From Calycina herbarum (lineage: Eukaryota; Ascomycota; Leotiomycetes; Helotiales; Pezizellaceae): 64,000 nucleotides of DNA. Shown in pieces: positions 22,598-58,930 of the stretch (positions are counted from its first letter, which is position 1; the number at the start of each line of letters is the position of its first letter). The notes beneath the pieces are model-generated. The model had not been told where the DNA came from, did no database searches, and saw nothing but the letters and a program-made list of their open reading frames with translations. The stretch is from positions 124,001 through 188,000 of the forward strand of contig LLEY01000029.1 in assembly GCA_001414485.1 (NCBI GenBank), written 5' to 3'. The position numbers were made by a program, and so were the translations under genes.

Positions 22598-25418
22598 ATG
22601 GGTCGAGGAGGAAAACGAGTAAGTCATTGCGACTCCTCTATCAAGCATCATCTAACAAAATAAATAGGGTGGTCGTGGTGGTCGAGGCCGTGGTCGCGGG
22701 GGCGGGGACCGTCGCGGGGGTGAGGACAATCGAGTCAGCTTCGACAAGGTCACGAAGGAGAACGAGCGCCTCGAAGGATATTACAATGATGTGCTTGGTC
22801 TTCCAAAGGTAGAGCAGGAGGAGTTCTGGGAGGCATACAAGAGAGAATTGCCCAACAGTTTCCGTTTCACTGGGTCAAAAGGGTATGTCCCCAGGCGAAA
22901 AAAAAAAAGAAAATTCGAATCTTAGCTCGCAAGCGTTCAAAGCACTCGAATGGGGGAGTAATGGCATGCTGACTGAATTTGTAGACATGCGCTAGCTGTC
23001 CAAACCCAATTGAAAGAGCGATACGTTCCCGAAATCTCCAAAATCACCCACTTCAATGGACAAACCGTCGAGCCACCAAAACCCGTTTCGTGGTATCCAG
23101 ATGAGCTCGCTTGGTGGATGACGACGCCGAAAAACGTGGTTCGCAAGTTCCCACCCTTCGCCTCCTTCCAAAAGTTCTTGGTTTCGGAAACAAGTGTTGG
23201 AAATATCAGTCGACAAGAGGTGGTCAGCATGATCCCACCATTGGTGATGGATTTACAACCTGGAATGACTGTGTTGGATATGTGTGCTGCACCAGGTAGT
23301 AAGGCTGCTCAATTGCTCGAGATGGTACACAGAGGGGAGGAGGCTCGCGTCCACAAAGCTCTCCGACACTTTGCAACGGAGGATGGCCGAGAAGTGAGCC
23401 CTGGTCCCGGAATCAAAGGAGATGAGTTGGAGGTTGAAGTTGATACAAGCGACAACGGCAGAGCTACCGGACTCCTTATCGCCAACGACAACGATTATAA
23501 ACGCAGTCACATGTTAATTCATCAGCTCAAGCGGTTATCGTCTCCAAATTTGATTGTCACTAACCACGATGCTACCATGTATCCGTCCATTAAATTACCC
23601 CCCACGCCAGAAAACCCAGCATTGAATCGATACTTGAAATTTGACAGAATTTTGGCCGATGTGCCTTGTTCTGGGGATGGAACATTGAGAAAAAACGTCA
23701 ACTTGTGGAAAGACTGGACTCCTGGAAATGCCATTGGACTACACATGACACAAGTGCGTATCCTTGTTCGGGCTCTTCAGATGCTCAAGGTCGGGGGACG
23801 TGTAGTCTATTCGACCTGTAGTATGAATCCCGTGGAGAATGAAGCAGTCATTGTAGCTGCAATTGAAAGATGTGGTGGGCTTGAGAAAGTAAAACTTCTC
23901 CCTACCGATGATCAGTTGCCACTGCTGAAGAGAAATCCTGGTTTGAAATCCTGGACGGTGATGGATAAGGCTGGTAAAACCTGGTCCGACTTTGCTGAAG
24001 TTGAAAAGTACAACTCCGAGAATGGATCAACCTACGCATCCGAGAAGCTTTTATCAACCATGTTTGCACCTTCTCCCTCCGCAGATGAAATCCCGCTTGA
24101 GAGATGTATGCGAGTATATGCGCATCAGCAGGACACAGGTGGATTTTTCATTTCAATACTAGAGAAATTGTCCGAATTCAAGGCAAAACCCGAGTCGGAA
24201 TCGAAGAAAGGAGAACCAAAACCTCCAATTAGCGCAATTGTTGACGAAATCGAATCCATGCCTGCGCCAATTGAGGGTGGAAGTGTTATCCCAAAGATAA
24301 ATGCCGCCGATGCTCTGACTGGGCCTTCTGCTCCAATTGCAGACGAGCTTACACCCACACCGGTAGCACGCCAGAACCAGCCAGCTCCAGATACTATCTC
24401 TAATTGGAAGAAGCGATCTGCTAATAAAGTCGAGGGATTAGAAATTGACGGAGTTGTATCGACAAAGAAGCTCAAGTCAATAGATGGCGGGGATGAGGTA
24501 GCCGAACCAGGTTTGCAAGACCGACAAGTTCATTTCCCTCCCCCTCCAGCTGCAAAGGTCGAACCAACGAATGATGTTGTCGATATTCCTGATGTGATTA
24601 TTCCCCAACCACAAGTTCGTGCAAATCGAAACCGAAATGCGCAACAGTTCGAGGAGCCCTTCAAATACATCGTCGGCGATCACGCAGAAGTCCAAATCAT
24701 CGAAAAGTTCTACGAATTATCACCACGGTTCCCAAGAGACCGTTTCCTAGTACGAAATGCTGAGGGCGAACCAGCCAAGACAATTTACTATACCTCAAAA
24801 CTCATTCGCGACATTCTCACAGAAAACGAAGGAAAGGGAATCAAGTTCATCCACGGCGGTGTCCGCATGTTCATGAAGCAAGATGTCCAAGGAGAAGGAG
24901 TCTGCAGATGGAGAATCCAATCCGAAGGAATGCCCATCCTAGAAGGCTACGTCGGAATTGACCGTGTCGTCCGACTCTACAAGAAAGAAACCCTCCGCAA
25001 GCTCCTCATCGAAATGTTCCCCAAGGTCACTGACGACCACTGGAAAAACCTGGGTGAGATTGGTGAACGAGTAAGAGATATCGGTATGGGATGTTGTGTT
25101 CTCCGTATCGAACCTAGTGACGACAAAGATGGGTTCCAGGAACGTATGGTTCTTCCGCTTTGGAGAAGTCTGCATTCTTTAAACTTGATGTTAGCAAAGG
25201 AGGATCGAACGGCGATGTTGTTGAGGATTTTCAATGATACTACGCCGCTTGTTAATAACTCTAATACTTCGAAACAAGGAAAGAAGCCAGAAGCTGCGGA
25301 TGCCAAGGTTGAGGGAGAGATTAAGTCCGAGGAAGGGGCTGATGCTGCACCAGTGGAGCCAACAACGGAAACGGATGTCGACGTGAAGGAAGATGCAACC
25401 AAAACTGAGGATGCTTAG
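22598..25418 (+). CDS. trm4: tRNA (cytosine-5) methyltransferase, Trm4/Ncl1 (NSUN2) family
   Basis: Three exons: 22598-22618 (seven codons), 22668-22882 and 22985-25418; introns of 49 and 102 bp keep frame. The N-terminus is an RGG-rich tail (GGRGGRGRGRGGGDRRGG), as in many eukaryotic homologues. SAM-binding motif I is VLDMCAAPGSKAAQLLEM, motif IV is ILADVPCSGDGTLRKN with the product-release Cys, and motif VI is VYSTCSMNPVENEAVI with the catalytic Cys. The enzyme makes m5C at several tRNA positions in the nucleus. About 889 residues, with an extended acidic C-terminal tail. It is the most conserved gene of the window and intact. Confidence 0.96.
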
Positions 25419-35037: not shown

Positions 35038-36513
35038 TTATCGCGCCTGCCTAGGAAGATCCCTCAATTCCTCCTCATCGCTCGACCGCCTCCCCTCTTC
35101 AATCTTGGGTTCCTTCTCCCCACCTTCCTCATGTTGATGTAACTTCACATTGACAAACATAGCAAATAACCCCAAATCGTACGCAATCCTCAAAGCACCA
35201 GCGGCAACAAACGCAATCCAAAAACGATCATGACCCGCTAAAACACCGGTAACCGTGGGGCCAATTGCCGAAGCCAGCGTTCGAAGCATACTCGTAATTC
35301 CCATTATCGCTGTTCGCTCTTCTGGTCGAACGACCGCGGCAATAAAAGCCGCTCGTGGTGCTTGATCCATGTTATTCAATCCCGTCCGGATCATAAGCAG
35401 AATTACTGTCAAGACGATACCATTTGGTAATGGGAAGAATAGAACAGCTGCCGAAGATGGTAAGTGTGTGAACACCATGGTATTGACGAGGCCGAGACGA
35501 CGCGATAGTGGCGCCGCAAAGAGTGTCGAGATGAAGGATAAGAAATAGCTTGCAGATGTGATATCCCCCAGTGTCGATTTTGGGAGATGGAATTTCAAAT
35601 CCATGTAGTACGTGACGAGCGAGTATCCCACCATTCCGTCCGCAAGGGAGTCGATGATGAGTAGGAACCACAGCTTGTACATCGCCACTCTCGTGTCTTT
35701 CGAGATATGAGTAAAGAAGCTCTTCTTTTCCGGTTCCACCTCCACCTTCGCCTGTGGCTGATCCAAACTCCGGGAATCCCGTTCTTCCAGCTCCTGGCCC
35801 TCTTCCCCTTCCAACAACCCCTCAGTATCCTCTCCTTCCACCTTCACCGCAACCGGCGCCTCACACTTCTCACTCAAAAGTACCATACACAAAATATTCA
35901 ACAACCCAACCACAGAATAAATCCAAAAAATAGCATGATACGCATCAGTGACCACCCAACCATCCAGTCTTTCCAGAAAATCCACAACTCGTCCACTAGC
36001 TTCCGTCCCAATACTCTGTCCAAGAGTAGCAGCAGTAATATACCAAGCCAAAACATCCGGTCTAGTCTTCGGTCCCGTAAGCGTACTCAACATACTCTCC
36101 TCAATAGCCCTAAACGGCCCAAAATCACTCCCATTCGCACTGATAACCCCCAACACCGCCGCTGACAGTAATATCCAATAATTCTCGAAATAGGAAAATA
36201 TCACGCCTGACACAACCATGAGGGTTGAGCCACCGATGAGAACTAGTCGTCGGCCGACTCGATCCGCGACCAAGGTTATCCCCACAGAGAGCAGGACATC
36301 TCCAAGAAGCGTCAAGGTCATGAAAAGACCAATATAAGTATCGGAAAATTTGAGCGCCGAGAAGAAGAGTGCTAAGATGAGGGAAACGGTGCCGAAGGCT
36401 ATCATTCGGAGACAGCGGGCTGTGATGATGAGCCAGGCGTCGAGACCGGTGGAGTAGAGGGAGTTGAGACCGAGTTCTCGGTAGACCCAGGTTATGTGTT
36501 TGAGTACCGCCAT
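35038..36513 (-). CDS. Major facilitator superfamily transporter
   Basis: A single exon. The start is placed at MAVLKHITWVYRELG (36513); a longer frame back to 36669 would add an unlikely extra hydrophobic leader. About 12 membrane segments are visible in two halves. The motif A loop reads VADRVGRRLVLIGGS after segment 2, with its weaker copy after segment 8 (PLSRRLGLVNTM). The central cytoplasmic loop is acidic (EGLLEGEEGQELEERD). The tail is basic/acidic and ends DLPRQAR. The substrate is unknown. About 491 residues, normal for the family. Confidence 0.9.
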   Translation of the reverse strand: MAVLKHITWVYRELGLNSLYSTGLDAWLIITARCLRMIAFGTVSLILALFFSALKFSDTYIGLFMTLTLLGDVLLSVGITLVADRVGRRLVLIGGSTLMVVSGVIFSYFENYWILLSAAVLGVISANGSDFGPFRAIEESMLSTLTGPKTRPDVLAWYITAATLGQSIGTEASGRVVDFLERLDGWVVTDAYHAIFWIYSVVGLLNILCMVLLSEKCEAPVAVKVEGEDTEGLLEGEEGQELEERDSRSLDQPQAKVEVEPEKKSFFTHISKDTRVAMYKLWFLLIIDSLADGMVGYSLVTYYMDLKFHLPKSTLGDITSASYFLSFISTLFAAPLSRRLGLVNTMVFTHLPSSAAVLFFPLPNGIVLTVILLMIRTGLNNMDQAPRAAFIAAVVRPEERTAIMGITSMLRTLASAIGPTVTGVLAGHDRFWIAFVAAGALRIAYDLGLFAMFVNVKLHQHEEGGEKEPKIEEGRRSSDEEELRDLPRQAR

Positions 36514-37258
36514 GATGATCGACTTCACGACAGCAATGAAAGGATGAGAGGATGGAGGGAGGAAAGAGGAAAAGAGAATACAAACCAGACACACGACACA
36601 ATACTTAGAACGGTGAAAAAATTGACCTAAATTACTGGGGTTTCTCATGCATGTTTCTTTTGGCGTCATTAGTATACAATTGGGTTGGTGAGAAATTCAA
36701 AGGTGGGGTTTGCGGGGTGGCGAGGAGGTGCCGGAAATCCGTGATCGGGATTTGAAGATGCTATTCTATATTGGATTGCCTTCTTCATGTTGAATATTTG
36801 AAGAAGATTTGTGAAAAGCTTCTGCGTGAAGAAAATCCCTGCAAGAACATAAATAAATAGGCTTTTCCAGTGCTATATAAAAGAGACCGATGTCGCAGTA
36901 CACGTGACTCTCCTGGAACCAGCCCAACGCCCTCCGAGAAGCGGGAAGAATTATTTTGTGTCGAGGAGTTGTAATGCCACTTGACGGAATTGCTCTGTGG
37001 TTCCGGTACTAGAATAACAAGAATCCGGAGGTGAGGAGACATATTTAGAGCAACTTCCAACGAGTTTGATTCGGGAAGGGTGACTACTCTCTAAATGAAA
37101 TGTAGCTGAGACACTTGAGAGACGATTTGTAAAGAAGCGATGATCAAAACGTGGATTTTCGGGCAATCAGAAAATGAACACAGTTTCCAATTTAAGTTAT
37201 ATGATGCAACCCTTCAGAAGAGATGCCGCTAAAGACAATGCAACTGCAACCCCCAAAC
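36514..37258. other. Intergenic, no gene seen
   Basis: Promoter of the transporter and 3' flank of the aldolase gene. Confidence 0.5.
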
Positions 37259-44300: not shown

Positions 44301-45204
44301 TTAACACGTCGGAAACTGTACTCCCACCCTCGTAATAATCGCCTCCATCGGAACACTTGTATTTGACAATGTCGACGAACAATGTTCGGTATGATGATAA
44401 CTCGCCAATTCTCCCTGCACTTTCCAGCCCCTCTCCACTGAACGATGGAGCATCTTCCAAGCATAAATACAGTGATAGATGTGATATCTCCTGGTCGTCC
44501 ACAATCGCTCCGGGTGGGTATTGCCAACTTCCTCGTATGGTATGGGACTGAGCATCTCAGGCTCTGGGACTTCGATTCCGGGTCTTGAACTGTGGTAAAA
44601 ATCCCATGGACCAAGTTCTTCGAACTCTTTTGTCAAGTCGGCATCGAAGCAATCGGGATGCTCCCAGGACATGGTCATCTAAATATCAGAATTAGTTGAG
44701 TCTTATAAACTTTTTAATTCCCTTCTAAGTTTCATCTGTTCATTCTAACATAGAACTTCGTAATAAGAGATAGTTAGTTAAAAGCTAATGACCGAGAAAA
44801 CTTACAATATCCCAATGACATCCAAGACCCCGAGCTTCATCGGAGCTATTTCCACAAGTAAACGTACCTGATTTTTGAAGTCCACATGAAGAGCTAGCGA
44901 CAGTGTTCAGCCTCGAATTCTGACCGGGTTCTGAAATTGGAGGAATATGTTCAATGATGCCCGAAAGAATGAGGCTAATGGCGAAAAGGATGAGAAACGT
45001 CGATATGAGAATGCCAAAGCAAAAACCCAACCCAATCACTTTCATCCGAAGTGTTTGTCGATCTTGAGATAAAACAGGATTTCCAGCTTCGGGTGGTGTA
45101 GTATCGTCCTCGTCTTGTTTTTGGCTGATGGGTTGGTATCGCAGAGGTGGTGCACCCATGTTTTCAAAAATTCTGGACAAGAAATTCATAGAAATTAAAA
45201 TCAT
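44301..45204 (-). CDS. Single-pass membrane protein with twin HxxHC motifs (UstYa-like architecture), member B
   Basis: Two exons: 45204-44806 and 44678-44301, joined across intron 44679-44805 to read GCHWDIMTMSWEHPDCFD. A cytosolic head of about 50 residues is followed by one membrane segment (FCFGILISTFLILFAISLIL) and a luminal domain. The block CGNSSDEARGLGC matches CGDTLEEAEAVGC of the gene at 48988-49857, and both go on to D-I-M-T. Two HxxHC motifs are present: HIYHC in RRYHIYHCIYAWKMLHRS and HTEHC in YHHTEHCSS. Twin HxxHC behind one membrane pass is the signature of UstYa (DUF3328) oxidases, but the rest of the sequence is unlike canonical UstYa. The role is inferred from this and the cluster. 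Confidence 0.8.
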
Positions 45205-45451
45205 AAAGGCAAATCCTTTGTGATCGTTAAGAGAACTTCTCAGAGAATGGCATCTAGTTTGTTCAAGTCACATGTATACAGTTGCTCCGGTACCTAAGTC
45301 CGGAGGCATGTGTGGTACTCCCATTGGCCTCATCAAATCATTACACCGGCAAGAAAAACCGAACAGGACAAAAAGAACAACTTGTGAATGAACTAAGTAT
45401 CGGAAGCATTTTCTTGCTACCCAAACCTCTCTATTTCATCAAATTGAAAGC

Positions 45452-45728
45452 ATGTTTCGAGAAGAAAACTTCACATCGCCCGAAAATAAGCGAGGTCAGG
45501 GGTGGTCCATGAGACTTGTCTTCCTTTGCTTTATTCTATGGCTTGCATCATCAGCATCATTTGGAGGATTAATTGCAGTTTGGAGTCAAGGAAGTAGTGA
45601 GTAAAGTCTTTGTTCAGTTGTCTATTTACGTCTTGACCCTTATTTCCTGCTAGTGAGAAAAGCTACGGCAGGTAGAATTTTTGAGAACGAAGCAATAGGA
45701 CTTCCTTGGCGGGACCCCCTGACTTCAA
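45452..45728 (+). CDS. Possible small membrane protein (2-3 exons)
   Basis: Exon 1 (45452-45596) encodes MFREENFTSPENKRG, then a membrane segment (MRLVFLCFILWLASSASFGG). A 57-bp intron (GTGAGT...CTAG) joins exon 2 (45654-45728): RKATAGRIFENEAIGLPWRD. A GTAAGC donor follows and the next exon would end within a few codons, giving about 75-85 residues. It is head-to-head with member B across about 250 bp holding a TCCGGA site. It could also be the decayed 5' end of a longer membrane protein. Confidence 0.4.
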
Positions 45729-45799
45729 GTAAGCTTTTGGGACATTCGAAATACGAGGTTCGATAGCTAATTCGCTGGTTTAGAGTGATTTACGTCAAA

Positions 45800-47176
45800 A
45801 CAGGAATGCTTTCACGTTAAAAATTTATCTTGATTGTGACTGGGACTTGAGGGAAGTGACAATATGAAGAGGCTTGCTTTTGGTGGTGGTGTCAGGATAC
45901 TATCTATTTTAAAATGGATAGAAGGGAAAAGGGATTGGTGCTACTCAATCGTGGACCTTATTTGGATTTAAAGAAGATCAATAGTGGAGCCGGTTTTTAT
46001 CACGTTTACTTAACTATCCCCAGTTATACTTTTTGGTGATACACACTAGTTTTAAGAACCCAGATCTCACGGGGAGGGTGTTATGACAGGTCCTTCGCTA
46101 AACGAAAGGGGGGTGTAAGCAATACCCACGCCGGGATTACGACATCAGCTTACGGAGGCACACTGAAGCAAATCATCGAATGGTGATTACACTAGAGATA
46201 TTTCGGTCTCTTTTTCGGACAGTAACGATCTAATTTCTTAGCACAAGCTTGTTTACGTGGGGTAATTAGCATTGTACTCCGGAATTCCATCCGAGGGTCC
46301 ACTTGGGCGTGCATGAAAGATTAAGAACAACATATACCCCTCCGAACTTTTAATCGACCTTGGTGCTAATCTCACAAACTCCGGTCGAGAAACTGAATTG
46401 TTATCGCCGAGCTAAGTTTTGACGTGCTTGTATGCCGGTGGTTGGCGGTTTAAAATTCACCGGATATTGAACTACGATTTAAAAACGGGGGATGCATACT
46501 TGAGCCATCCCAAGTTGCCAATTGAACTGACGAGCATTCCAAATTTTCTCTTCACGTCGTCGAGGGATAACGAAAGGCGACTATGAAGTTTTCCATAATT
46601 CTAGTTTGGGGCGTACAGGCTTAGCTCGTATATCCAATTGCACTTCTGAACTATTTTGAATTCTTCTTACTTAATTGCTCCAGTCCTTGTTTAATCGAAA
46701 AAGAGGTAGATCTTCGAACAGGTTTTGGTCATTGTACATACAATAGCTGCACAACGGCAATTGAATGCAGTCATGGTGGAAACGGTATTAACGCCTTCAT
46801 GGATGTGGGCCAAAAAATGGAGATAGCCTACCCGTAATTGTGGAGCCATGGTGGGGTTAAGGATAAGGTTAGCGGGGTATTGTGCAGCATGGCGGGGTCA
46901 GAGTGGCAAAGAGGCACAGCAGAGAGCTATGTCTTACAGAACCAAAAAATCCTTCATTGCCGCTCGTAATATTGTCCAATTGATGGAAGAAATCCTTCCC
47001 CGAGGATGGAAATGTCATGTATGGGAATTTCAAGTTATGCAAAGTAGCGGTGAGGATTGTAGCTAGTTAGTTGGAGAATGTTCCTAAATCGTACATCTTC
47101 TGTCCGGCGTCCCTCCAGAATGCAAGTAATTCGTATCTTTTATGTGCTTGAGCTTTAACCTTTTGGCTCTTTCGAA
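45800..47176. other. Intergenic, no gene seen
   Basis: No spliceable protein-like frame is found. A 72-codon frame near 46848 is not credible. Confidence 0.5.
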
Positions 47177-48724
47177 ATGAATCAGGTGGACTCATCCTCT
47201 GCGCTATGGGGTAATCAACACAGGACGAAGCCTAGAGCGAGAAGAAATACCGGCTCGACTATGGCCACAGCTTGCGACCAGTGCCATCGCTGCAAGGTCA
47301 AATGCTCCGGTGGAAAACCTTCTTGTGATCGTTGCCAAAGTTATGAAAGCATTTGTACCTATAGTTTGGGAAAACCTCTTGGCAAGCCCCCAAAGAATGC
47401 CACGCGTAAGCCGTACCCGCTCCCGTCTCAGCCACAGCCGTTACCAAATTCTCCCCCCTATTCGGCCCCACTTCCACTCCCTCCCCTCCAAACGAAACAA
47501 TTTCAACAACATACGCACGAAAGGTCCAAGTCCCATGCTGGTATCGAATTTGGTTAGTAGCCGAAGCCTAAAGAACGTTTTTGTGTTAACAATGCTGTCG
47601 TTGCAGACTTCAATGTTGCTTCAGCACCAATAACACGAATTGAAGAGAAGAACATAAGAACATCAAATGCCAATCAAGGGGAAAATAGAGGAACACCAAT
47701 GGGACGACCAAACCAACCAACTCAAGCAACCACAAGGAGGAATCCAGATTCACAAATATACGGGGACGCAGAGTCGTACCTCCAAGATGATTGTCTCTTC
47801 TCACCATTAGATAATACCATCAATTTCTTCAACGGAACCGAGAACTCAGAGGATATGAATCTTGATTTTTTTACGACCGACTTCTGCGCAGATTTTCGGA
47901 CAGAAGCAAATCAAAAAGACAGCTCGTCCTCACATGATGATGTTGTGATGACGAGCAACGAGCGTCTTGAAACACCAGTAATCCCTACCCCGCCATCATC
48001 ATTTTCAGCAGCCTTATCTAATGGTCGAGAATCACCGGGGACACGGACTCACTCGACGAATTCCTTTGATAAAGACAAAACAGACAGCACAAAAACAGTA
48101 TCCGTGATGGACATAACAATGACCCCCTGTAAGGACAACGAACAACAAGAAGAAAGCCATCCAGAGTGCGTTCCTATTCTTGAGATGACACTCCGTTTAT
48201 ACTTCCAAACATCATCCAACACACAATATCCGATTAGCGAAACCCTTCGACTCGCTAGACAAGGACTCCAAGCTGTCCAGCAACACATTCCGAAGTTTTT
48301 ACCTACAGAGTTCACCTCGGAGCCAAATGATAGCAGTATTTTAACTTGCATTCTCCTCATGGACCAAGTATTGCTTTGCTACGACTCGCTCCTAAAGCGA
48401 CCCCTTGGGCTAGGATACTCAGGCAGAAAGGATACATCATCGCCTTGTGCGCTCTCTGCTGCCCTGTCTCCGAATTCACCACCAAATCATACAACTTTGC
48501 AACATCATAAAAGGCAACGAATTTTCATTGGGGACTTTGAGGTTCAGGGGAAAGCGAGTTGGAAGGTCATCCTCGATGCAGTCGTACAGGCAGAAATGCA
48601 AGAAGCTCAGGGCACGGTCTCAAAACTTGAGCAGTGGGCAAAGGAATTGAACGCGACTGGAGATAAAGATGGAAATCTGGCATTGGATTTTCTGGAGCCC
48701 TTGAAACAGAAATCACGCGATTGA
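47177..48724 (+). CDS. Zn2Cys6 transcription factor, candidate cluster regulator
   Basis: Two exons, 47177-47552 and 47607-48724; the 54-bp intron (GTTAGT...GCAG, branch GTTAAC) keeps frame. The binuclear zinc cluster is CDQCHRCKVKCSGGKPSC followed by DRCQSYESICTYS, six Cys with the standard spacing. It sits near the N-terminus, as in AflR-type regulators of fungal secondary metabolism. The middle is Pro/Ser-rich; the C-terminal part (MTLRLYFQTSSNTQYPISET, SSILTCILLMDQVLLCYDSL) resembles the short activation/regulatory region of AflR-like proteins. It lies inside the candidate RiPP cluster and may bind the CCGG-containing sites there. Confidence 0.88.
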
Positions 48725-48987
48725 GGAAGAGTTTAGGGGTCTGAATAATTAAAATAAATTGAAATCCATAATGCTAATCCCGTAGCCGAGAACCGACAGC
48801 CACAGTAGAGATATGAAGATGAAAAACATGAAAGACGAAGTGGCGTGCCGCTAACAAGTTGTTATCATAGATATATAACAAGTGACTTGAATATGTACCT
48901 AAAGGAAACACAACAAATTAATCTGCCGTTTTCCAGCACCTTAGCCCCAAAGATTTTGTCCCAGTGCATTGAGTCAACCTGACCATC

Positions 48988-49857
48988 TTACTCCCAACCA
49001 TCGACCCTAACACAAGAACCAACAACCCGAATAGCCATAGAAGGATCAGACATTGGCAAGTCAAGCTCATTGAGAAGCTTATTGCAATGTATAACATGCT
49101 CCCAATGCGAAGCCTTGTTATACACATAAACCTCCCTCTCGCCTGCAATTACTCGCATCGCAGACTTGTGCATGATTCGCCAAAGATACAAGCAATGTGC
49201 ACGATGATAAATCATGTCCGTCCAGATGCTCTCATGATGTGACAAGATGGCGGGGGACTGCTCCAGAGGTCCGGTGTAATTTTCCGTCTGCCACCATTCC
49301 CACGTACCAGCACCCCTTGTAGGCGCCAATTCCGAGAGTTCTGACGTAACATCGTCATGAATTTCTACATCGAGGCATGCAGGAGGCGTCCATGCAAAAG
49401 TCATGATGTCGAAAATACAACCGACTGCTTCCGCTTCTTCGAGGGTATCTCCACAAGAGAGAAGTACTCCGGATGATGTGTATTCGTAACCTGGAAGACG
49501 TCCTGGCAGCAGCGCATTGTGCTCACGTTGATGCTTCCATAGAATCCCGACGAGAGAAAGGCCAACCAGACTGGCAGCGAGGAGCAACACAGAGTATACC
49601 CGGGTTCGATGATTGGACAGATACCCATGGAGCTTAAGGAGAGCACTTTTGGTTGACGAGATTTGTTTGAACATTGCATCGCGTTCAAGGGCAACGTAAT
49701 TGGTGTCTTTTTGTTGCATTTTCTCCATGTCGATTGCATCAAGGTTGTCAATGGAGTCTCTTTCGTCGCTGTAGCCAATTTGTGTTGACTGACGGGACGA
49801 AGAAGAGGAGGACGATAGCCTCTCCCCAAGGAAAGGGGTGGCGTTTTCGGTTGACAT
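48988..49857 (-). CDS. Single-pass membrane protein with twin HxxHC motifs (UstYa-like architecture), member A
   Basis: One exon, 289 residues. A Ser-rich cytosolic head of about 100 residues, one membrane segment (VYSVLLLAASLVGLSLVGIL), then a luminal domain with CGDTLEEAEAVGCIFDIMTF and WTPPACLDVE, followed by HRAHC in YHRAHCLYLWRIMHKS and HVIHC in HWEHVIHCNKLL. The order and spacing mirror member B (44301-45204). It is transcribed divergently from the repeat precursor at 50327, with 469 bp between the two starts. I infer a membrane-bound maturation enzyme of the secretory pathway, of a type not yet described to my knowledge. Confidence 0.82.
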   Translation of the reverse strand: MSTENATPFLGERLSSSSSSSRQSTQIGYSDERDSIDNLDAIDMEKMQQKDTNYVALERDAMFKQISSTKSALLKLHGYLSNHRTRVYSVLLLAASLVGLSLVGILWKHQREHNALLPGRLPGYEYTSSGVLLSCGDTLEEAEAVGCIFDIMTFAWTPPACLDVEIHDDVTSELSELAPTRGAGTWEWWQTENYTGPLEQSPAILSHHESIWTDMIYHRAHCLYLWRIMHKSAMRVIAGEREVYVYNKASHWEHVIHCNKLLNELDLPMSDPSMAIRVVGSCVRVDGWE

Positions 49858-50326
49858 TGTGAATTTGTGAATTAGAATAGCAATATGGTCAAAATGAGAA
49901 GGCCAAGCAGCGTGTGTGAAATCTTAAGAAGCGAAGAGGTGAGCCCACCAGCATATCTTCGGAGGTAGATGAACAGAAATGGGAAGGTGGGAGGGCATAG
50001 TAGAGGATCCGAACAGTTTCCGAGATGTTTGAGATGTCAGTGCCGGACTAAGTGAGTGTCGTGAGCTTGCCGGACTATCATTTGGGGCATCATTTGGGGC
50101 AGAAGAGATTGCAATTCCGGTCACACTTATTCAGGCCGAAATTCTAAAACTTTCCGGAATATCGCACGACCAGTTGTGGGACTACCAGCTTCTTGTGTCC
50201 CTAGAGGTTCCAGGACTGAGTTTGAATAAGTATCTATAGACTGAAGTCAACAGTCAACACAATCTCCATCAGCTTTCAACCCTTCTATCTCATCCTCTCT
50301 GCTCTCGGCCAGAACACTTTGCAAAC
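49858..50326. promoter_or_regulatory. Bidirectional promoter between member A and the precursor
   Basis: The 469-bp gap between divergent starts contains TTTCCGGAAT at 50151-50160, two direct copies of TGCCGGACTA (50041-50050 and 50068-50077), and ATTCCGGTCA at 50114. CGG/CCG triplets are the usual half-sites of Zn2Cys6 regulators, one of which is encoded 1.6 kb away. Confidence 0.55.
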
Positions 50327-50839
50327 ATGAAGCTCAGCACACTTTTGGCATACTTGCCCTTGCTCTCCGTAGCGTTAGCACTGCCATACGCAGGAGGTAT
50401 GTCTAAGCACTTGCTCAGAATTGTATAGTTCGCTGACATGAATCTCACTGTAGCCCACGCCGAACGTGACATCGAGTCTATTCGCAAGAGGGATATGATC
50501 ATCGAGCCCATCGAGGCACGAGACATCGAATCCATTCGCCGGGATATTGAATCTATCCGAAAGAGAGATATTGAATCTATCCGCAAGAGGGATATCGAGT
50601 CAATCCGCAAGAGGGACATCGAATCAATCCGCAAGAGAGATATTGAATCCATTCGCCGGGACATTGAATCCATCCGCAAGAGGGAGCCCAGTTCAGTTGA
50701 TGAGAGGGATATCGAGTCTATTCGTCGCGATATTGAATCAATCCGCAAGAGGGACCCCACTGTCACCGAAAGAGACATCGAGTCTATTTGCAGGGACATC
50801 GAGTCGATCCGCAAGAGAGATATCGAGTCGATTAGGTAG
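50327..50839 (+). CDS. Secreted Kex2-type repeat precursor, candidate RiPP precursor
   Basis: Two exons, 50327-50396 and 50454-50839; the 57-bp intron has donor GTATGT, branch GCTGAC and acceptor TGTAG. The 151-residue product starts with a clear signal peptide (MKLSTLLAYLPLLSVALA). The mature part is 13 units: 12 DIESIR and one DIESIC. Eight units are followed by Lys-Arg, three join the next through Arg-Arg, and one variant has Cys-Arg. Acidic spacers (MIIEPIEAR, EPSSVDER, DPTVTER) separate groups. Kex2 cutting after KR would release DIESIR-type peptides or the double form. Fungal dikaritin (ustiloxin-type) precursors share this architecture, but those cores carry an aromatic residue and these have none. 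A pheromone-like or structural repeat peptide is the alternative. Confidence 0.88.
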
Positions 50840-51302
50840 AAGGCCTTCGCCGGGAGTTGCATGGTTTGCAGTGGATTGCTGGTGGATGGGTAATTTTTAG
50901 TTTTCGGCGAGCTAGTCAGCCGTTAATTGTCAGTCATTATCAAGGAGATTTGGGGGGTATTTTCATAAGAACCTTACTTCCTGCAATAAAAACCACGTCA
51001 AGCTAAAAAAATCCTCGCATCGTTCGTTTGCAAGTATCGTAATACTAAATATTGGTTGATGGCCAAATGAAATTGATAGGAAAGTTGGCAATGCCCATCA
51101 GATATATTTAACCACCATTGCCCCAAAAACAAGCCGTAGAATGGTTTTGTCTTCACAATGACTGTTTCTTTTGTCCCGTCATTGGCGCCATTTGCCCAGG
51201 AAATCAAGCCAAAGGTCAAATGTTGCATTTCCAAAGAAACCAAGCCTATGTCCCAGCGAGTATTATTCTCACTCCCATAATGACATTGTTGAAGGTTCTA
51301 CA
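50840..51302. other. Intergenic, no gene seen
   Basis: Converging 3' flanks of the precursor and the pseudo-hydrolase gene. Confidence 0.5.
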
Positions 51303-52244
51303 TCATGTTAAACTAGCCAGCCAATTTTTCAAAATATCGACGAATTCTTCAGGGTTCTCGCAACAAGCCAGCCGACTGTTTCTAGGGATCATTTTAAAAG
51401 TTCCCTTCTTGTTTCTCATCGACGCCGGGTATGTTTCCATCTCTTCTGGTAGATCAGCATCACCAGACCCGCAAATGAATAGTGCCGACAATTGTAAATC
51501 CTCCAGCATGTGTTTTCCAGTTTGTTCCGTGTCATTATGACCAACGCACTCCAGTACAGCATTCGACAATTTCTCCATTCCCTCAATACTGCCCGCAGCA
51601 ATCATGTTTCGAACGCGTGTCCATTCGGAGCTCCCTCTGGCATCGACCGTGAACCAATTTGAAATTGCCTTATCTGCGAGTATCCCCATGCCAACACGAC
51701 GGGCGAGACTTGATCGAAGGGCCCATTCGTCAATGGCCCTCTGGCGCAGCATGACAGGAGAATCGGGAATCGCGAAACCGATGCCGATGAACGACGACGA
51801 AATCGAGGGCTGGCTCTTCAGCAACGCAAGGCCCATGTTCGCACCAAATCCCAGGCCAATTATAGCATATACATGTGGTATAGACAGGCTTCCGAGGAGG
51901 AATTCGAGATCGGAAACAAGAAGGGAGACGGTGATGGGTTGGGATGTTCCTATGGAATCAGTAGAATAGCCCCTCCGGTCTTGAAAAGGGTCAGCAGAAG
52001 AAATGTAGAAAGATCAGGCGAGAGCAAACTCGCCATAACGGACAAGACGATACTGTGGACAATACTTCTTCAAACGATCAATTGTGGGATCCCATATATG
52101 AAAATTGGTAAATATATCATTTATAAAGACAATAACTGGGCTACCGGGCGACGTGTTTCCTTCAACGGAATAATGAAGGACACTGGAATCTGGCAACACG
52201 AAGCATGTTGGATCAAGAGCACCGCTCTCAAGAATAGCGGCCAT
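51303..52244 (-). CDS. Alpha/beta hydrolase-fold protein lacking nucleophile and His (likely pseudoenzyme)
   Basis: Two exons, 52244-52035 (start MAAILESGALDPTC...) and 51979-51303. Joining requires an intron at 51980-52033 with a rare GC donor (GCGAGT...TTCAAG, branch GCTGAC); it restores YRLVRYDRRGYSTDS, the conserved course of the 3-oxoadipate enol-lactonase-like family. The nucleophile elbow reads IIGLGFGANMG, with Gly where the Ser should be. The HG oxyanion motif is IND (VIVFINDIFTNFHIW). The catalytic His region reads SRLACCENPEEF, with no His. The Asp (CGSGDADLPEE) remains. It is probably not a hydrolase; a binding or scaffold role in the cluster is possible. The longer frame to 52478 is not used. 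Confidence 0.8.
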
Positions 52245-52514
52245 GTTTTTGAAGACAATAGATACACAACAACCTCTCATGGTGTTGTAAGATACGATTG
52301 TTTCACGAAACCCCGCAAAATGACTTGTCAGGTGACCTACCCTCGTACTAGAAATAACCCAACCTGTGACCGACCTCCTCCTTGCACCCAGAGCTCGTCC
52401 CTCAAACCCCTTTCCAAAGTTTGAAATATCTTTTCCTAACCCCGACAATGCACCTGTATTCATTTTTGCTATCGACAATGATTTTCGCTCGTTCTTTTAG
52501 CTCCGCATTGAAAT

Positions 52515-52581
52515 TCCGGAGCAGTGACGAACCCTCCGGAATTACCTAGTATGTCCAGCCATCAACTTGTCTAGGTCCGGA
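52515..52581. promoter_or_regulatory. Three TCCGGA palindromes upstream of the UstYa gene
   Basis: TCCGGA occurs at 52515-52520, 52535-52540 and 52576-52581, the last only 5 bp before the ATG at 52587. They lie between the start of the pseudo-hydrolase (minus) and the UstYa gene (plus). Such CCG/CGG palindromes are plausible Zn2Cys6 sites. Confidence 0.5.
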
Positions 52582-52586
52582 ACAAT

Positions 52587-53615
52587 ATGGAAACGAGTGA
52601 TTCACAAGTGGCACCACGATTTGCTGTACAGCCAGAAAAAGGTGACAAGCCACCCAGAAATTCGAGAAGACCCTTGCTTGGAATCATGTTTTCGAACCAT
52701 GCAAAGAAGGGAAAGGAAGAGTACTCAAGAATTGAGGACGGAGGAGAAAGTAGTTTGCAGTTGCCACAGCGAACAAGGCTTGGATCTGTCCAAAGACATG
52801 TTTTTACCGCAAAGACTGCCATTATATTAGTGGTTATTTTGGTATCATCAGGACTGGCATGGATCTGGGCAAGTACCCATTTGAGAAACGGACGTTGGCA
52901 TCCACAGACAATGATTCCTCGAAGTAAGTAAGAAGTGTAAACTGTTGAAGGTATGGAATTTTAACTATGTTACAGTTGGGATTGCACCGGTCCATTTCCA
53001 TTTCTCAGACCTGTATATGGAATACACGGATGAGAGTAATAAAGCATGGGATGAGCTGGTGCCAGGTATTCCTTTACTTCATATCACTTATGATATCCTT
53101 CTCTTCATCAAATCCCCACTGATAATTTGTTAGTCCAATATGGTCTCATCGAAATCGAAGATCCCATGAGATACGATCTCAAACCCGGTCATGTGGATGC
53201 CGAAAACCCGAATAAAGCGTGGTATGGGATATCGATATTCCATCAGTTGCATTGCTTGACTGCAATAAGAGATACCTTGAGGGCTGTGAAAACTGATCAA
53301 CCGGCCAGAGCGTGGGGAGGTCCAGATCATCTCGAGCATTGCCTCGACTATCTTCGCCAGGGCCTCATGTGTGCGGCGGATACTACCATCGAATGGCCTC
53401 TGTTTGTGAACCACGGTTTCAAGGACGATGGGCCTATTACTGGAGAAGGCATTGCTCATCAATGTCGAGATGTATGGAACTTTCCCAGGGGCCCAGAGCA
53501 AGTTTTCTCGCTAACATTTTTGTAGTGGGATACGGTGCTTAAGTTTGGAAGAAATAATGGGGCATTGAAGTCGACTGACGAGAGGAATGTTAGCGATATT
53601 ATCCATGGAGCTTGA
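52587..53615 (+). CDS. UstYa-family oxidase (DUF3328)
   Basis: Four exons: 52587-52923, 52976-53065, 53134-53471 and 53526-53615 (284 aa); all introns (52, 68, 54 bp) keep frame. A cytosolic head is followed by one membrane segment (AIILVVILVSSGLAWIW) and the luminal UstYa domain: NKAWDELVPVQYGLIEI, then the two signature motifs HQLHC (FHQLHCLTAIRDTLRA) and HLEHC (DHLEHCLDYLRQGLMCAAD), and the family end motif CRDWDTVLKFGRNNG. UstYa proteins make the oxidative macrocycle of dikaritins (ustiloxin, phomopsin type) and act on Kex2-released peptides in the secretory pathway. The precursor lies 2 kb upstream. Confidence 0.93.
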
Positions 53616-54310
53616 TAATAGGAAAATGTTTCTGAATGTTTTCTTTCCTGCGGTGAATAGTGCCTTCCATTGTTGTGGTTGGATTAAAGTTGCGGAGGAC
53701 GTGGAGACACTTGGCTTGGCCTCTGGGGAAAGACCCACTCCAGCTTTGTTGAAATGCTAGCGTAGTATATTTCTCAAGTGCGGGCAACACGTTGGCATAA
53801 ATTTTATACCAACATCAACATATGAGATGGATAGGGATTGGAGGTTATAACCACCTACCTATTCGGTATTCCTCCCACGATACGAGACAACGCGGAACGC
53901 GGAACGCAGCCGTGTTCGTAATCTAGGCCTATTATGTGGCGTATTCGTATTTTGAGTTTTTCCGGTTGAATTTATGGCTGCAACACCAATTTATCCTCGA
54001 GTACCTCATTGGTTTACCAATAGGATGAATCCTTTGCCAAAATACGGATAACCAACCGCAGCCCAACCTGTGAAATTATTCCATGGTGGATACTGAGGCA
54101 CGGAAACATTGCCACCCGGGGCTAAGAGATGAAACCACTTTTTAGACTCCACCCTCATTCCTTCCACAACCTCGACCACAATACACAAGCAAGAACAATA
54201 CGCCTAAGAAACTTTGTGTGTCGTAAAGGAGGAGAAAGACTACGGAATTCTAAAGTAAAACAATCGACGCTGCCGAGACCCAGTACAACTTCAACACACC
54301 AGAACGCATC
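53616..54310. other. Intergenic, no gene seen
   Basis: Promoter side of the P450 gene. TTCCGGTTGAA lies at about 53958. Confidence 0.5.
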
Positions 54311-56240
54311 ATGTTTCTGGACCCACTGTTCCATCGCTTCTCTACAACAACCCTATTTGCAGCCTTTGCTGTACTGTTCATCGGCGTCTATGTCCTAGCA
54401 TTCTCGGGAAAATACCAATTCTCGACGAAGTCACCAAAACCAGTTAATGGAGGTTATCCAATTCTCGGAGCTGTCCGATTTTTTACAGCTCGGTGGGATT
54501 TCTTTCAACATGCCCGAGCTCAAGCACCAACTGGGAATTTTACTTTTTTCCTTGGAAAGCACCCAATTGTTGGTTTGAGTGGTGATAAAGCTCGCTCTTT
54601 GTTTTTCGAGAGCCGAGATTTAGGATTCGCTGAAGGGTATTTCTTATCCTTCCGAAGCCATGGAATCACAAACGAGCTAACTTTGGTGGTAGATATGCAG
54701 TGCTGTTTGGACAGTCACCGAATAGTCTGAAAGAAGATGCGCACGTAGCTAATGATAAAGACTTTACTGGTTCTGGGGGTTATTTCTCCCGCCGCATAAC
54801 CGCTATGCTTAAAACTCAGAATTTCAACAAAAGTGGGTTAAAAAACGGAAATTGCTTGATGAACTTGGACTGATATAAATCAGACTTGCCAAAACTCATG
54901 AAGGATGTCCAGATTAGCATCAAAGGTCTTGCAGATGATCCATCCGGAATGACTGACCCTTTTGAAAGCATCTATAGAATTGTGTTTCAACTTACCATGC
55001 GAATGGTGGGATCTGATGATATTGCCGATAATCCGGAACTTCTTGAAAAGACACTTCAACTATACGAGACAATCGAAAGCAGCTCCACAGCTACAGCAAT
55101 TATGTTTCCGTGGTTCCCATCACTCGCCATCATCAAACGAACAATTGCAGGTGGTCGCCTTTACGTGATAATGAAAAGTATTGTTGATGGTAGAATCAAG
55201 TCTGGTCATAGAGGAGATGATCCTTTGCAGTTTCTCATGGATCAAGGTGATGATGTTAGAAAGATTATTGAGGTGATTAATATCCCAATAAACATTTCAA
55301 CCGGATGATGCGCTAATTTTATAAGTTCATTATTGGCGCCCTATTTGCGGGATTGCTCAACAGTGGCATCAACGTGGGCTGGGTACTTCTTTATCTCGCA
55401 AAAGATCCCTACTGGATGTCGAAAATCCGAGAGGAAGTGGCAACAGTCGCTTCAAAATACAGTCCTGACAGAGAGGCCCCTCTTGCAGAACAGCTTACCT
55501 ATGTTAGTACCCGATTTCTCGGAGAAATCCCTTCTTTAGGGAGATCCCCGAACCAAAGCATTTCAATATTTCAGCTACAACCACCTACTCCTACTCGTTA
55601 GACATCAACAAAAAATCATACTGACTTCAAGATTCCGTAGATCCCAAGCGAGGCCTGGGAGTCTGAATTCCCACTCATCGACCTATGCTTGAGAGATAGT
55701 ATCCGTTTACAGATGCTCGGAACCGCTTTCCGGAAGAATACCAGTGGTCGTGATATTCCTACTGGCGTCGGTGATGAAGTTATTCCACCGGGTGCTTTCG
55801 TCGCATACCATACTGGCGATGTCAGTTTGGATCCAACAATATACTCAGATCCTCGAAAATGGGACCCTTCTAGATATTTGCCCGACAGAGCGGAAGATAA
55901 GAAAAGACCACATTCGTATATTGGTTGGGGATCGGGGAGACACCCTTGTCGTAAGTCCAACTTCTGCCATTCTTTTAGAGAGGACTTTGCTAATTATTTT
56001 GCTTTGTAGTTGGAATGAGAGTAAGCCATGTAGGAATGCTAATTATTTACCCATGCTGACGTGAAACAGTTTGCCAAATTGGAACAGAACCTCATCACTG
56101 CATTTTTCGTTGCCAATTTCGATTACGATTTGACCGACAAGAATGGAAACTTACTTCCTTGCACACCTCCTATCGATTACAATGGCCACTCCGCAACAAA
56201 GCCACCGACCCCAGTTTACTTGAAGTACCAAGCCAGATGA
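54311..56240 (+). CDS. Cytochrome P450 with altered ExxR motif and an 11-nt micro-exon
   Basis: Seven exons: 54311-54636, 54693-54832, 54884-55272, 55326-55502, 55641-55950, 56010-56020 (11 nt) and 56070-56240; every join keeps frame and gives 507 residues. An N-terminal anchor (FAAFAVLFIGVYVLAF) is followed by a helix I region FAGLLNSGINVGW (AGxxN in place of AGxxT), the K-helix CLRDSIRLQ with Asp for the Glu of ExxR, DPSRYLPDR, and the haem loop GWGSGRHPCLGMR. The micro-exon encodes the LGMR just after the haem Cys. It is an ER-bound mono-oxygenase by family. The changed ExxR could lower or alter activity. Confidence 0.9.
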
Positions 56241-57014
56241 TTGACGATGTAACATTTAGCTTGTGGAAGTACTTTTTATATTGCGGAGATCTTCTTACCT
56301 GGTTGATTCAGGCTCGGAATACATATCTACATCTTCATCCTCTATCCTTTGTTTCAAATCGCATCTTAAATAGAAGTGTATAAGTGTGTATGGAATTATT
56401 TTTGAGACTTTATACATTGGCACTGCTCCGAGGGGTCTCGGGCCCTCTTTTGAATCTTACCACCAACATTTCGTCTCATTTGCATGTTCGTTTTTTCTCT
56501 TGCGGTTTTTCAAGAATAATTCAAGATATCTGATTCACATCATCCAGGCTACTTATCAATCTCAAACACAGTTCATCATGAGCATAAATTACATCTGCGT
56601 TTCTTGGAACAATGATTGCAACTACAAGTAATGAAGAGGTAGACTTTCTACCAACCTATACACTCTCGATCATGCCCGTGTTTGGGAAGTTGATACCGGA
56701 ACCCCGCATTTCTTAGCACCGAAACTCCGATTTGTGCTTTGAAATACACAATTGATAAGCATTGCGTACTACAAGTATCACGTCAAGCAAGCCTTGTATG
56801 AAGTTATGCGGAAAGTGAATTCCACCGACTTGGAACTCTGAGAAGGTGACGAACAAAAGCAGAGTATATAAGGGGTTCTTTCTTTGGAATTGCTCCATCA
56901 ACTCCTAAACAATACTCCAACTATCAAGTGCAAGAAAATCACGTGTTTTGCTCAACTGTTACCCCGCATTACCCCCACATTTCCCCAAAACACCCAAATA
57001 CCAAAGCATCCATC
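56241..57014. other. Intergenic, no gene seen
   Basis: GATACCGGAACCCC at about 56692 is a half-site of the TCCGGA type. No gene is called. Confidence 0.5.
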
Positions 57015-57927
57015 ATGGCAGCACCAAAGATCATCTTGTATACCAATCACGAGTGCCCATGGGCTCATCGTGCTCACATTGCGCTTCGTGAGCTTGGTCT
57101 CCAATACGAGGAAGTCCTCATCGACCTCAGTGTGCCTAGGACTCCAGAATGTAAGAAATATTCCTTCGTCAATTGCTGAGTCCGAATACTTGGTTTGCCA
57201 GTTTTTCCAGCAATGAATCTCTTCCAACCTCCCTATCCGACATTACTTGATTGTTTCAATTACAGATTTAGCATCTTACTGACGCCATGTTCTAGACCTC
57301 GCCATCAATCCCCGTGGTCTCGTACCATCCTTGTCATACAATGGAGAGATCCTCACCGAGTCCGGGATTGTTTCTCAATTCCTGGCTGACGCTCACCCGA
57401 GCCACTTGTTGAAGACGAGCACCGAGCCGGGTGGTGCTTTGCAAAGAGCAAAAATTGCTTTCTTCGTTGACACGTGGTTCACCAAAATTCATTCTTCATA
57501 CTTCCCGGTCTTGAGAACTAAGGGTGCCGAGAAGGAAGAAGCAGCCGCAAAGGTTGTGGATGCTATCACGAAAGAGATTGAGCCTTTGTTGAAAGATGCT
57601 TCGCCTTTCTTTGGTGGATCTGAGAAGTTAACTTTTGCTGAGGTATTTACGATATCTTTTTCCTTCCTGCTTTATGGTTGGCGGGTTATTGACAAATTGA
57701 ATTAACGTTTTGGTCCATAGGTCTTGACTGGCTCTTTCATCATTCGACTTATCGGCTTCGCGAACTATCCAGAACTTATTCCGACATCGGTTTTGGCCAG
57801 TCTTGAATCCAAAGCTCCAAACTTCTGGAAGTGGGCCAACGCGGTTGTGAAGGAAGATAGTGTGACGTATATCTGGGATGAGAAGAAATATGCTGAGGCC
57901 GCCATCGCCAGGCTAGCAAAGGCTTGA
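57015..57927 (+). CDS. Glutathione S-transferase
   Basis: Three exons: 57015-57150, 57296-57642 and 57721-57927 (229 aa); introns of 145 and 78 bp (GTAAGA, GTATTT donors). The thioredoxin-like N-domain has HECPWAHRAHIALRELGL, and the glutathione site follows as YLAINPRGLVPSLSYNGEIL and TESGIVSQF. The C-domain is helical (FWKWANAVVKEDSVTYIW). The CPWA start is seen in omega-like and URE2-like GSTs of fungi. It joins glutathione to electrophiles, and could protect the cell from, or act on, a cluster product. It ends the run of plus-strand genes in the candidate cluster. Confidence 0.9.
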
Positions 57928-58409: not shown

Positions 58410-58930
58410 CAGCGTAATCACAAAATACTCTGCTACTCACAACTACTCGAGTAGTACTCAAGAGTAGTAGAGTAGAGTATGAGTAGCGGGTCGGTTGAGT
58501 AGAGTAGAGTAGTGACTTAAGACTACTCGAGTAGTCTTGAGTAGTCTTAGTAATATTTCTATATTTGCATTTATAAGGCTTATAAGGCTTATAAAGCTTA
58601 TTATTATTAATATTAGTAGTTATATATAATAAAAATTTCTTTTTATCATTATATAATTAATAGCTAAACTATTAAGACTATTATTAAAGAAGTTACGTAG
58701 TAGACAGAGTAGAAAGAAGATCTCGCTTAAGCTCCCGGGCAGCTCCGGAACGCCACTCCGACGCCACACCATCCCACCGGCCCGGACCGGCCCGATTCGG
58801 CCCGCACTACTCCACTACTCTTGAGTAGTACTCTAGAGTTTATGAGTAGAGTAGAGTAGTACTTAAAATTACTTGAGTAGAGTAGAGTAGGGGTCACTAC
58901 TCTACTCTACTCTACTCATTTAATACGCTG
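58410..58930. mobile_element. Non-autonomous hAT-type element (521 bp) made of GAGTA repeats
   Basis: The ends are CAGCGTAATCAC... and ...TTAATACGCTG, inverted to each other, and are flanked by a perfect 8-bp duplication GGTTTTTC (58402-58409 and 58931-58938), as expected of hAT transposons. The two subterminal parts (58430-58540 and 58805-58915) are runs of GAGTA/TACTC units, some in palindromes such as CTACTCGAGTAG. The middle is AT-rich and then GC-rich. It encodes no protein. Confidence 0.88.

Follow-up and report, generated by a model that had tools for sequence, protein, structure and literature searches.

A candidate UstYa-type RiPP cluster with a precursor of aromatic-free DIESI repeats and remote relatives of UstYa in Calycina herbarum

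The locus described here belongs to the ascomycete Calycina herbarum (Helotiales) and lies in a window of 64,000 nucleotides (contig LLEY01000029.1, here C212, positions 124001-188000) of a 68.8-Mb genome assembled in 379 contigs. Eight gene models, assembled manually from translations in all six frames and all of them open, occupy positions 44301-57927 of this window, from the stop codon of the membrane protein gene HxxHC1 (44301) to that of a glutathione S-transferase (GST) gene (57927). Their introns are all of the GT-AG type except for a single GC-AG intron. The set consists of a secreted-looking repeat precursor, a UstYa protein (DUF3328, PF11807), two further membrane proteins with twin HxxHC motifs (HxxHC1 and HxxHC2), a Zn2Cys6 transcription factor, an alpha/beta-hydrolase-fold protein, a cytochrome P450 and the GST, and every gene named in the original prediction is present. 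Seven of the models were tested against Pfam, which recognized UstYa (PF11807, 4.8e-28), the regulator (Zn_clus, 8.7e-9), the P450 (p450, 1.6e-28) and the GST (GST_N_2, 1.2e-15), and placed neither HxxHC1, HxxHC2 nor the precursor in any family above its cut-off; the hydrolase-like protein was compared separately. In our assessment, it is rather likely that the locus harbors a small cluster for a ribosomally synthesized and post-translationally modified peptide (RiPP), whose modified product, free of aromatic residues, would derive from DIESI repeats.

The precursor gene (50327..50839, forward strand; exons 50327-50396 and 50454-50839) encodes 151 residues, with an N-terminal sequence (MKLSTLLAYLPLLSVALALP) that, judged by eye, resembles a secretion signal. 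Basic sites divide the body of the protein into 16 segments, 13 of which hold DIESI (12 as DIESIR and one as DIESIC), the remaining three being DMIIEPIEA, EPSSVDE and DPTVTE. KR comes after eight of the 13 units; in three others the next residue is an R, so that RR arises together with the unit's own R; the DIESIC unit precedes a single R, and one further unit sits at the C-terminus. Tandem units separated by Kex2 sites, the mark of a Kex2-repeat precursor, are hence found here with eight KR and three RR sites, and the middle of the array (50541-50685) reaches scores of 161-186 in Tandem Repeats Finder, which bears out the KR-repeat precursor proposed initially. The proposed product, built from DIESIR peptides, had to be corrected: once KR and RR sites are cut and the ends trimmed by a Kex1-type activity, DIESI would remain, and DIESIR was dropped as the mature core. 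The DNA of the 13 units is different in every case, with synonymous differences near saturation (pS 0.84) and almost no nonsynonymous ones (pN 0.021, ratio 0.025), the latter value being biased low because the units were chosen by their peptide motif and the three segments without DIESI were excluded. The retention of DIESI in 13 of 16 segments despite this divergence is the pattern expected if each unit releases a peptide. Searching the genome with the precursor returned only the precursor itself, and a text search of the literature for DIESIR yielded no relevant paper.

The UstYa gene (52587..53615, forward strand, 284 residues in four exons) carries the motifs HQLHC and HLEHC, and the twin HxxHC noted earlier in two further membrane proteins is confirmed. 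HxxHC1 (44301..45159, reverse strand; exons 45159-44806 and 44678-44301), defined by its splice model, family searches and alignment, encodes 243 residues with HIYHC and HTEHC; HxxHC2 (48988..49857, reverse strand) is intronless and encodes 289 residues with HRAHC and HVIHC. Both proteins contain the HxxHC(x)nHxxHC arrangement of UstYa, both fall below the PF11807 cut-off, and neither has a match in NCBIfam at E<=0.01. The original prediction had seen that these two proteins are divergent, but had missed that they belong to a family with at least 14 genes at seven places in this genome (two on C212, three each on C180, C329 and C51, and one each on C334, C146 and C42, where C followed by a number denotes a contig). 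This count derives from four member queries, which individually recovered 12, 13, 14 and 13 of these genes among the best candidates scored. An alignment of 18 sequences, representing 11 of the 14 genes and seven database homologs, reveals invariant positions (HxxHC2 numbering) at C135, G136, A142, C147 and C161 and at H218, H221 and C222 of the first HxxHC, and conservation of at least 90% at G146, W156, the second HxxHC and C282.

Compared as hhalign profiles, the HxxHC family and six UstYa sequences align with 82% probability and a pairwise E of 1e-5 over 52 columns that span the twin HxxHC, and each profile weakly touches members of the other family. PF11807 itself is weakly matched by five of the 18 members (best E 0.0012, with the limit at E<=10), and under the same limit no other Pfam family is matched by more than one of them. 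Judged by these profile comparisons, the HxxHC family is a remote relative of UstYa, and it is missed by a PF11807 search at its cut-off. Like the DUF3328 proteins, among them CctR of cyclochlorotine and PhomYc and PhomYd of phomopsin, its members have a single membrane helix (by eye), the HxxHC(x)nHxxHC motif and the core recovered by hhalign. Unlike UstYa, they possess CGx5Ax3GC and Wx4C ahead of the twin HxxHC, whereas R(x)4C(x)2DT and HxC, present after this motif pair in all six aligned UstYa sequences, are absent from them. Neither UstYa nor the HxxHC alignment retrieved any PDB sequence at E<=1, and we found no description of an HxxHC family outside Pfam in open-licence papers. The novelty of the cluster resides in this family.

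The distribution of the family across the genome supports its assignment to one pathway with UstYa and the repeat precursor. The 71 exon-level matches to PF11807 fall into 37 places, and a UstYa match lies within 10 kb of five of the seven HxxHC places and of ten of the 14 HxxHC genes. A Kex2-repeat precursor is found at the same five places, with units of DIESI on C212, ETAYPKEKVL on C180, STAAYPVIEEDIVA on C329, EDIDNAWKASYI on C334 and EKAAYAYAPNE on C146. The C334 precursor was missed by a first scan that required at least three like units and emerged, among false hits, when these 20 loci were rescanned less strictly; its further units were seen by eye. In a simple binomial treatment, in which places are regarded as random, the chance of at least five of seven HxxHC places falling near one of the 37 UstYa places is about 3e-9, and the corresponding chance for precursors, assuming 100 of them per genome, is about 4e-7. 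By way of comparison, only two of 26 places with tyrosinase matches are close to UstYa (Fisher p 0.0016). Nine of the 37 UstYa places were read over at least 10 kb, and six of these hold a precursor, namely the five HxxHC places and one on C338. It is not unusual for a genome to contain several clusters of this kind, since nine dikaritin clusters are reported for Venturia inaequalis alone (PMC9632046).

The individual places differ in composition. Three HxxHC genes, one of them 41% identical to HxxHC1, accompany UstYa and the ETAYPKEKVL precursor at C180:31927-41767; UstYa, HxxHC genes and the STAAYPVIEEDIVA precursor lie at C329:247630-256757, and UstYa, an HxxHC gene and the EDIDNAWKASYI precursor at C334:114687-120692. 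At C146:451784-456561, a tyrosinase, UstYa, an HxxHC-family gene and the EKAAYAYAPNE precursor are contained in 5 kb; because of the tyrosinase, this place looks like a classic dikaritin cluster to which an HxxHC gene has been added. At C51:88993-97034 there are three HxxHC genes, with a major facilitator superfamily (MFS) gene and a Zn2Cys6 gene nearby and no UstYa match, and a small secreted-looking protein (MKFTITTLFLATILGMAIAAPVKRDDAV...) encoded between two of the HxxHC genes could be a one-copy precursor. The precursor on C338 (319285-319815) lies beside a UstYa gene, at a place with no member of the HxxHC family, and contains about nine DEDLG-type units (mostly ADEDLG) with KR sites, most of them aromatic-free.

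A shared upstream element points to coordinate regulation of part of the locus. Known dikaritin clusters have a Zn2Cys6 regulator, and the one found here (47177..48724, forward strand, 497 residues in two exons) is presumed to control the pathway. Out of 512 strand-collapsed 5-mers, CCGGA ranks first for over-representation in three intergenic regions taken together: P1 (45285..45305), with two CCGGA/TCCGG sites upstream of HxxHC1, between it and a short ORF (45453..45763); P3 (50043..50160), with four such sites between HxxHC2 and the precursor; and P4 (52514..52582), with three palindromic TCCGGA sites between the hydrolase-like gene and UstYa. These regions hold nine distinct sites versus 1.16 expected (p 3.8e-6 before correction for 512 words), a contrast that is optimistic inasmuch as the three were grouped after CCGGA had been noticed, and the background behind it (260 sites in 247,001 bases) includes coding as well as non-coding sequence. 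When all six upstream regions are pooled, the count is 14 versus 3.55 expected (p 2.2e-5, uncorrected for 512 words), and in gene bodies it is 11 versus 9.06. The share of same-length background windows with at least as many sites, with palindromes counted twice on both sides, is 0.02 for the HxxHC1 region, 0.004 for the HxxHC2/precursor region and 0.0000 for the hydrolase-like/UstYa region; it rises to 0.11 upstream of the regulator, 0.49 upstream of the P450 and 0.53 upstream of the GST. A Poisson p of 2.2e-10 was set aside in favor of the distinct-site figures, as it counted palindromic sites twice, and the classical CGGN(x)CCG regulator site showed no enrichment at any of the five spacings tried.

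The CCGGA element may be taken as evidence for one regulon, whose limits bear on the initial claim that all the genes of the locus act as one pathway. For the precursor, UstYa and the two HxxHC proteins the claim is supported by the recurrence of the HxxHC family beside UstYa and repeat precursors at five of its seven places and by the common element. Its extension to the P450 (54311..56240, forward strand, 507 residues in seven exons) and the GST (57015..57927, forward strand, 229 residues in three exons) would be favored by their position as the next genes downstream of UstYa, in the same direction and with both models open. On the other hand, their upstream regions are not enriched in CCGGA (two sites versus 1.55 expected), and a Pfam scan of 30 ORFs around the remaining six HxxHC places, which took in some of the ORFs there and to which a protein of this hydrolase-like kind is invisible, revealed neither a P450 nor a GST. 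A single pathway comprising all eight genes is hence rather unlikely. Because CCGGA is enriched at P1, P3 and P4 and not upstream of the P450 and the GST, the membership of these two genes is unproven and we restrict the unit to the other six, so that it probably consists of HxxHC1, the regulator, HxxHC2, the precursor, the hydrolase-like protein and UstYa.

Several results weigh against a RiPP cluster of this composition. Besides the grouping and background of the CCGGA counts, the regulator's own upstream region is only marginally enriched (3 versus 0.84 sites, p 0.05). The predicted structures are weak (pLDDT 57.1 and 42.4), and the placement of each HxxHC on one of two long adjacent helices in both of these models was not counted as evidence. 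Neither a UstYa match nor a repeat precursor was found at the HxxHC places on C51 and C42, and no precursor was found at three of the nine UstYa places read (C135, C250 and C353). In other fungi, precursor, UstYa and HxxHC2 are unevenly spread among relatives, and joint inheritance is not seen in the named matches. The precursor search drew on about 5.8 billion proteins, scored the 7994 candidates with the most shared words, and returned a single homolog, PAC_12781 (P0001) of Phialocephala subalpina. This protein is 95 residues long and carries mixed units, among them DIKSI, DMESI and YIESI, and no UstYa or HxxHC2 match was named from that species. HxxHC2 has 11 homologs besides itself, of which those named come from Mollisia scopiformis and 'Dothideomycetes sp.' and the remainder lie mostly on short contigs, and the named UstYa matches come from a Mollisiaceae isolate and Rhynchosporium. 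All three protein searches required shared 5-residue words, and intron-free gene calling may favor intronless genes such as HxxHC2; absence in relatives is for these reasons weak evidence. If real, the loss of both enzymes together with the blurred repeats of P. subalpina would, speculatively, fit a pathway that is decaying in that species.

The presence of the precursor homolog in P. subalpina, with neither enzyme named, would also suit a simpler scheme, in which the precursor yields an unmodified secreted linear peptide, acting as a signal or at the surface, and the adjacent oxidases serve something else. Such a scheme would be in line with a survey of 1,461 fungal genomes, according to which 22% of Kex2-repeat precursors are accompanied by DUF3328 genes and 78% are not (PMC7329392). 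It is at odds with the recurrence of repeat precursor, UstYa and HxxHC family at five places of this genome, and with the divergent intergenic region that the precursor and HxxHC2 have in common, with its four CCGGA sites, and we deem it improbable. Our analysis favors instead a real and probably functional cluster, a variant of the RiPP kind that combines UstYa with Kex2-processed repeat proteins (KEPs).

As in the KEPs described previously (Umemura 2020; Le Marquer 2019), a signal-like N-terminus is here followed by tandem units split by KR and RR; the DIESI precursor differs in having a single database homolog returned, PAC_12781. With the dikaritins (ustiloxin, phomopsin, asperipin-2a) the cluster shares a secreted-looking precursor, repeated cores, Kex2 sites, one or more UstYa-type proteins and a Zn2Cys6 regulator. 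It departs from them in having no aromatic core residue, in that two of its three HxxHC proteins lie below the PF11807 cut-off, and in that none of the 45 PF00264 (tyrosinase) matches listed for the genome lies on C212. The five-gene definition of dikaritins by Ding et al., as quoted in PMC12048977, comprises a precursor, DUF3328 proteins (several), a tyrosinase, a methyltransferase, and a transporter or peptidase. A precursor with leader and repeated cores is present here, and one protein matches PF11807, the two HxxHC proteins being remotely homologous and below the cut-off; no tyrosinase match was found on the contig and no methyltransferase among the eight gene models at 44-58 kb. Among those window ORFs that were scanned, an RNA methyltransferase of the NSUN2 type lies far away (22977-25415), an MFS gene lies 7.6 kb outside the unit (35041-36696), and there is no peptidase among the proteins scanned. 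Under the newer definition, in which a DUF3328 protein acting on a ribosomal precursor is class-defining (PMC12048977), the cluster, with its PF11807 protein, could be counted as a dikaritin cluster. The original prediction had held that UstYa and a Kex2-repeat precursor together define dikaritins; UstYa-type proteins are indeed class-defining in one definition, but they are reported to serve nonribosomal peptide synthetase and polyketide pathways as well (PMC12048977). It had also presented the lack of a tyrosine core as unlike described clusters, which was overstated. Among repeats from precursors beside DUF3328 genes, 65.6% are reported to contain Tyr and 34.4% to be without it (Umemura 2020, PMC7329392), so that a Tyr-less core is a minority form and not a new kind, and an ADEDLG precursor stands beside UstYa on C338. 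The lack of Tyr was accordingly dropped as a novelty by itself.

Work on related proteins suggests how the cluster might operate. In CctR, a DUF3328 protein reported as a binuclear copper, oxygen-dependent hydroxylase, the residues of HxxHC(x)nHxxHC are needed for activity, and the protein is proposed to be membrane-anchored and lumen-facing (PMC12435403). In the phomopsin producer, gene inactivation points to DUF3328 proteins for the formation of dehydro-Ile and dehydro-Asp (PMC10880069). In the scheme that we infer, the Zn2Cys6 protein would read the CCGGA element and the precursor would enter the endoplasmic reticulum. UstYa, HxxHC1 and HxxHC2 would be anchored in secretory-pathway membranes so that the HxxHC(x)nHxxHC domain of each faces the lumen, and would be copper oxidases that introduce a desaturation, a hydroxylation or an inter-residue link at Asp, Ile, Glu or Ser. 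Before or after oxidation, Kex2 would cut after KR and RR and Kex1 would trim the basic residues, giving rise to DIESI-based peptides; the P450 and the GST are not counted as members. Since Ile and Asp, which are desaturated in phomopsins, abound in DIESI, UstYa-type chemistry on this unit would need no tyrosine. More tentatively, and with rather less confidence than in the cluster itself, the HxxHC proteins might form a so far undescribed sister family of the UstYa copper oxidases, invisible to mining with PF11807, which might act with UstYa, perhaps in a mixed complex, on Kex2-repeat precursors, and might here desaturate, hydroxylate or cross-link a wholly aliphatic and acidic DIESI peptide with no need for an aromatic residue.

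Surveys of fungal RiPPs find clusters through DUF3328 (PF11807) matches, as described in PMC7329392 and PMC12048977. Should another HxxHC family regularly accompany repeat precursors, the annotations of many clusters would at present lack enzymes, and some clusters may be overlooked altogether. An aromatic-free core would moreover set the needs of UstYa-type chemistry apart from the tyrosine linkages that occur in ustiloxins, asperipin-2a and phomopsins. The short DIESI core also has an easily predicted mass, with computed [M+H]+ values of 576.2875 for DIESI, 574.2719 and 572.2562 after loss of 2H and 4H, 592.2824 with an added O, 558.2770 for the head-to-tail form and 732.3886 for DIESIR.

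The alpha/beta-hydrolase-fold protein (51303..52244, reverse strand, 295 residues) has no Pfam match at E<=0.001 and matches PDB 2xua, a 3-oxoadipate enol-lactonase, at 7.2e-13. An in-frame stop that seemed to break the gene is removed by its GC-AG intron (51980-52033), and a broken gene was rejected. At the nucleophile motif the protein reads GLGFG where 2xua has GLSMG, the usual Ser of GxSxG being replaced by Gly. It is thus probably not a hydrolase, and would bind rather than hydrolyse on account of the lost nucleophile. A protein of this kind is also what a decaying cluster, left with remnants of a former pathway, might contain, as is the short ORF at 45453..45763 (forward strand), possibly a remnant, which includes a hydrophobic stretch and is followed by stops. 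Such decay is very improbable, given that all eight main gene models are open and that 13 of 16 repeat segments keep DIESI despite DNA divergence. The short ORF, which shares the P1 intergenic region with HxxHC1 and diverges from it, has only itself as a match in the genome and may not be a gene. At the far end of the locus, the nearest solved chains to the P450 are those of CYP51, and beyond the GST repeated AGTAGAGTAG-like words become abundant at 58420-58920 of the window, marking a change to repetitive sequence.

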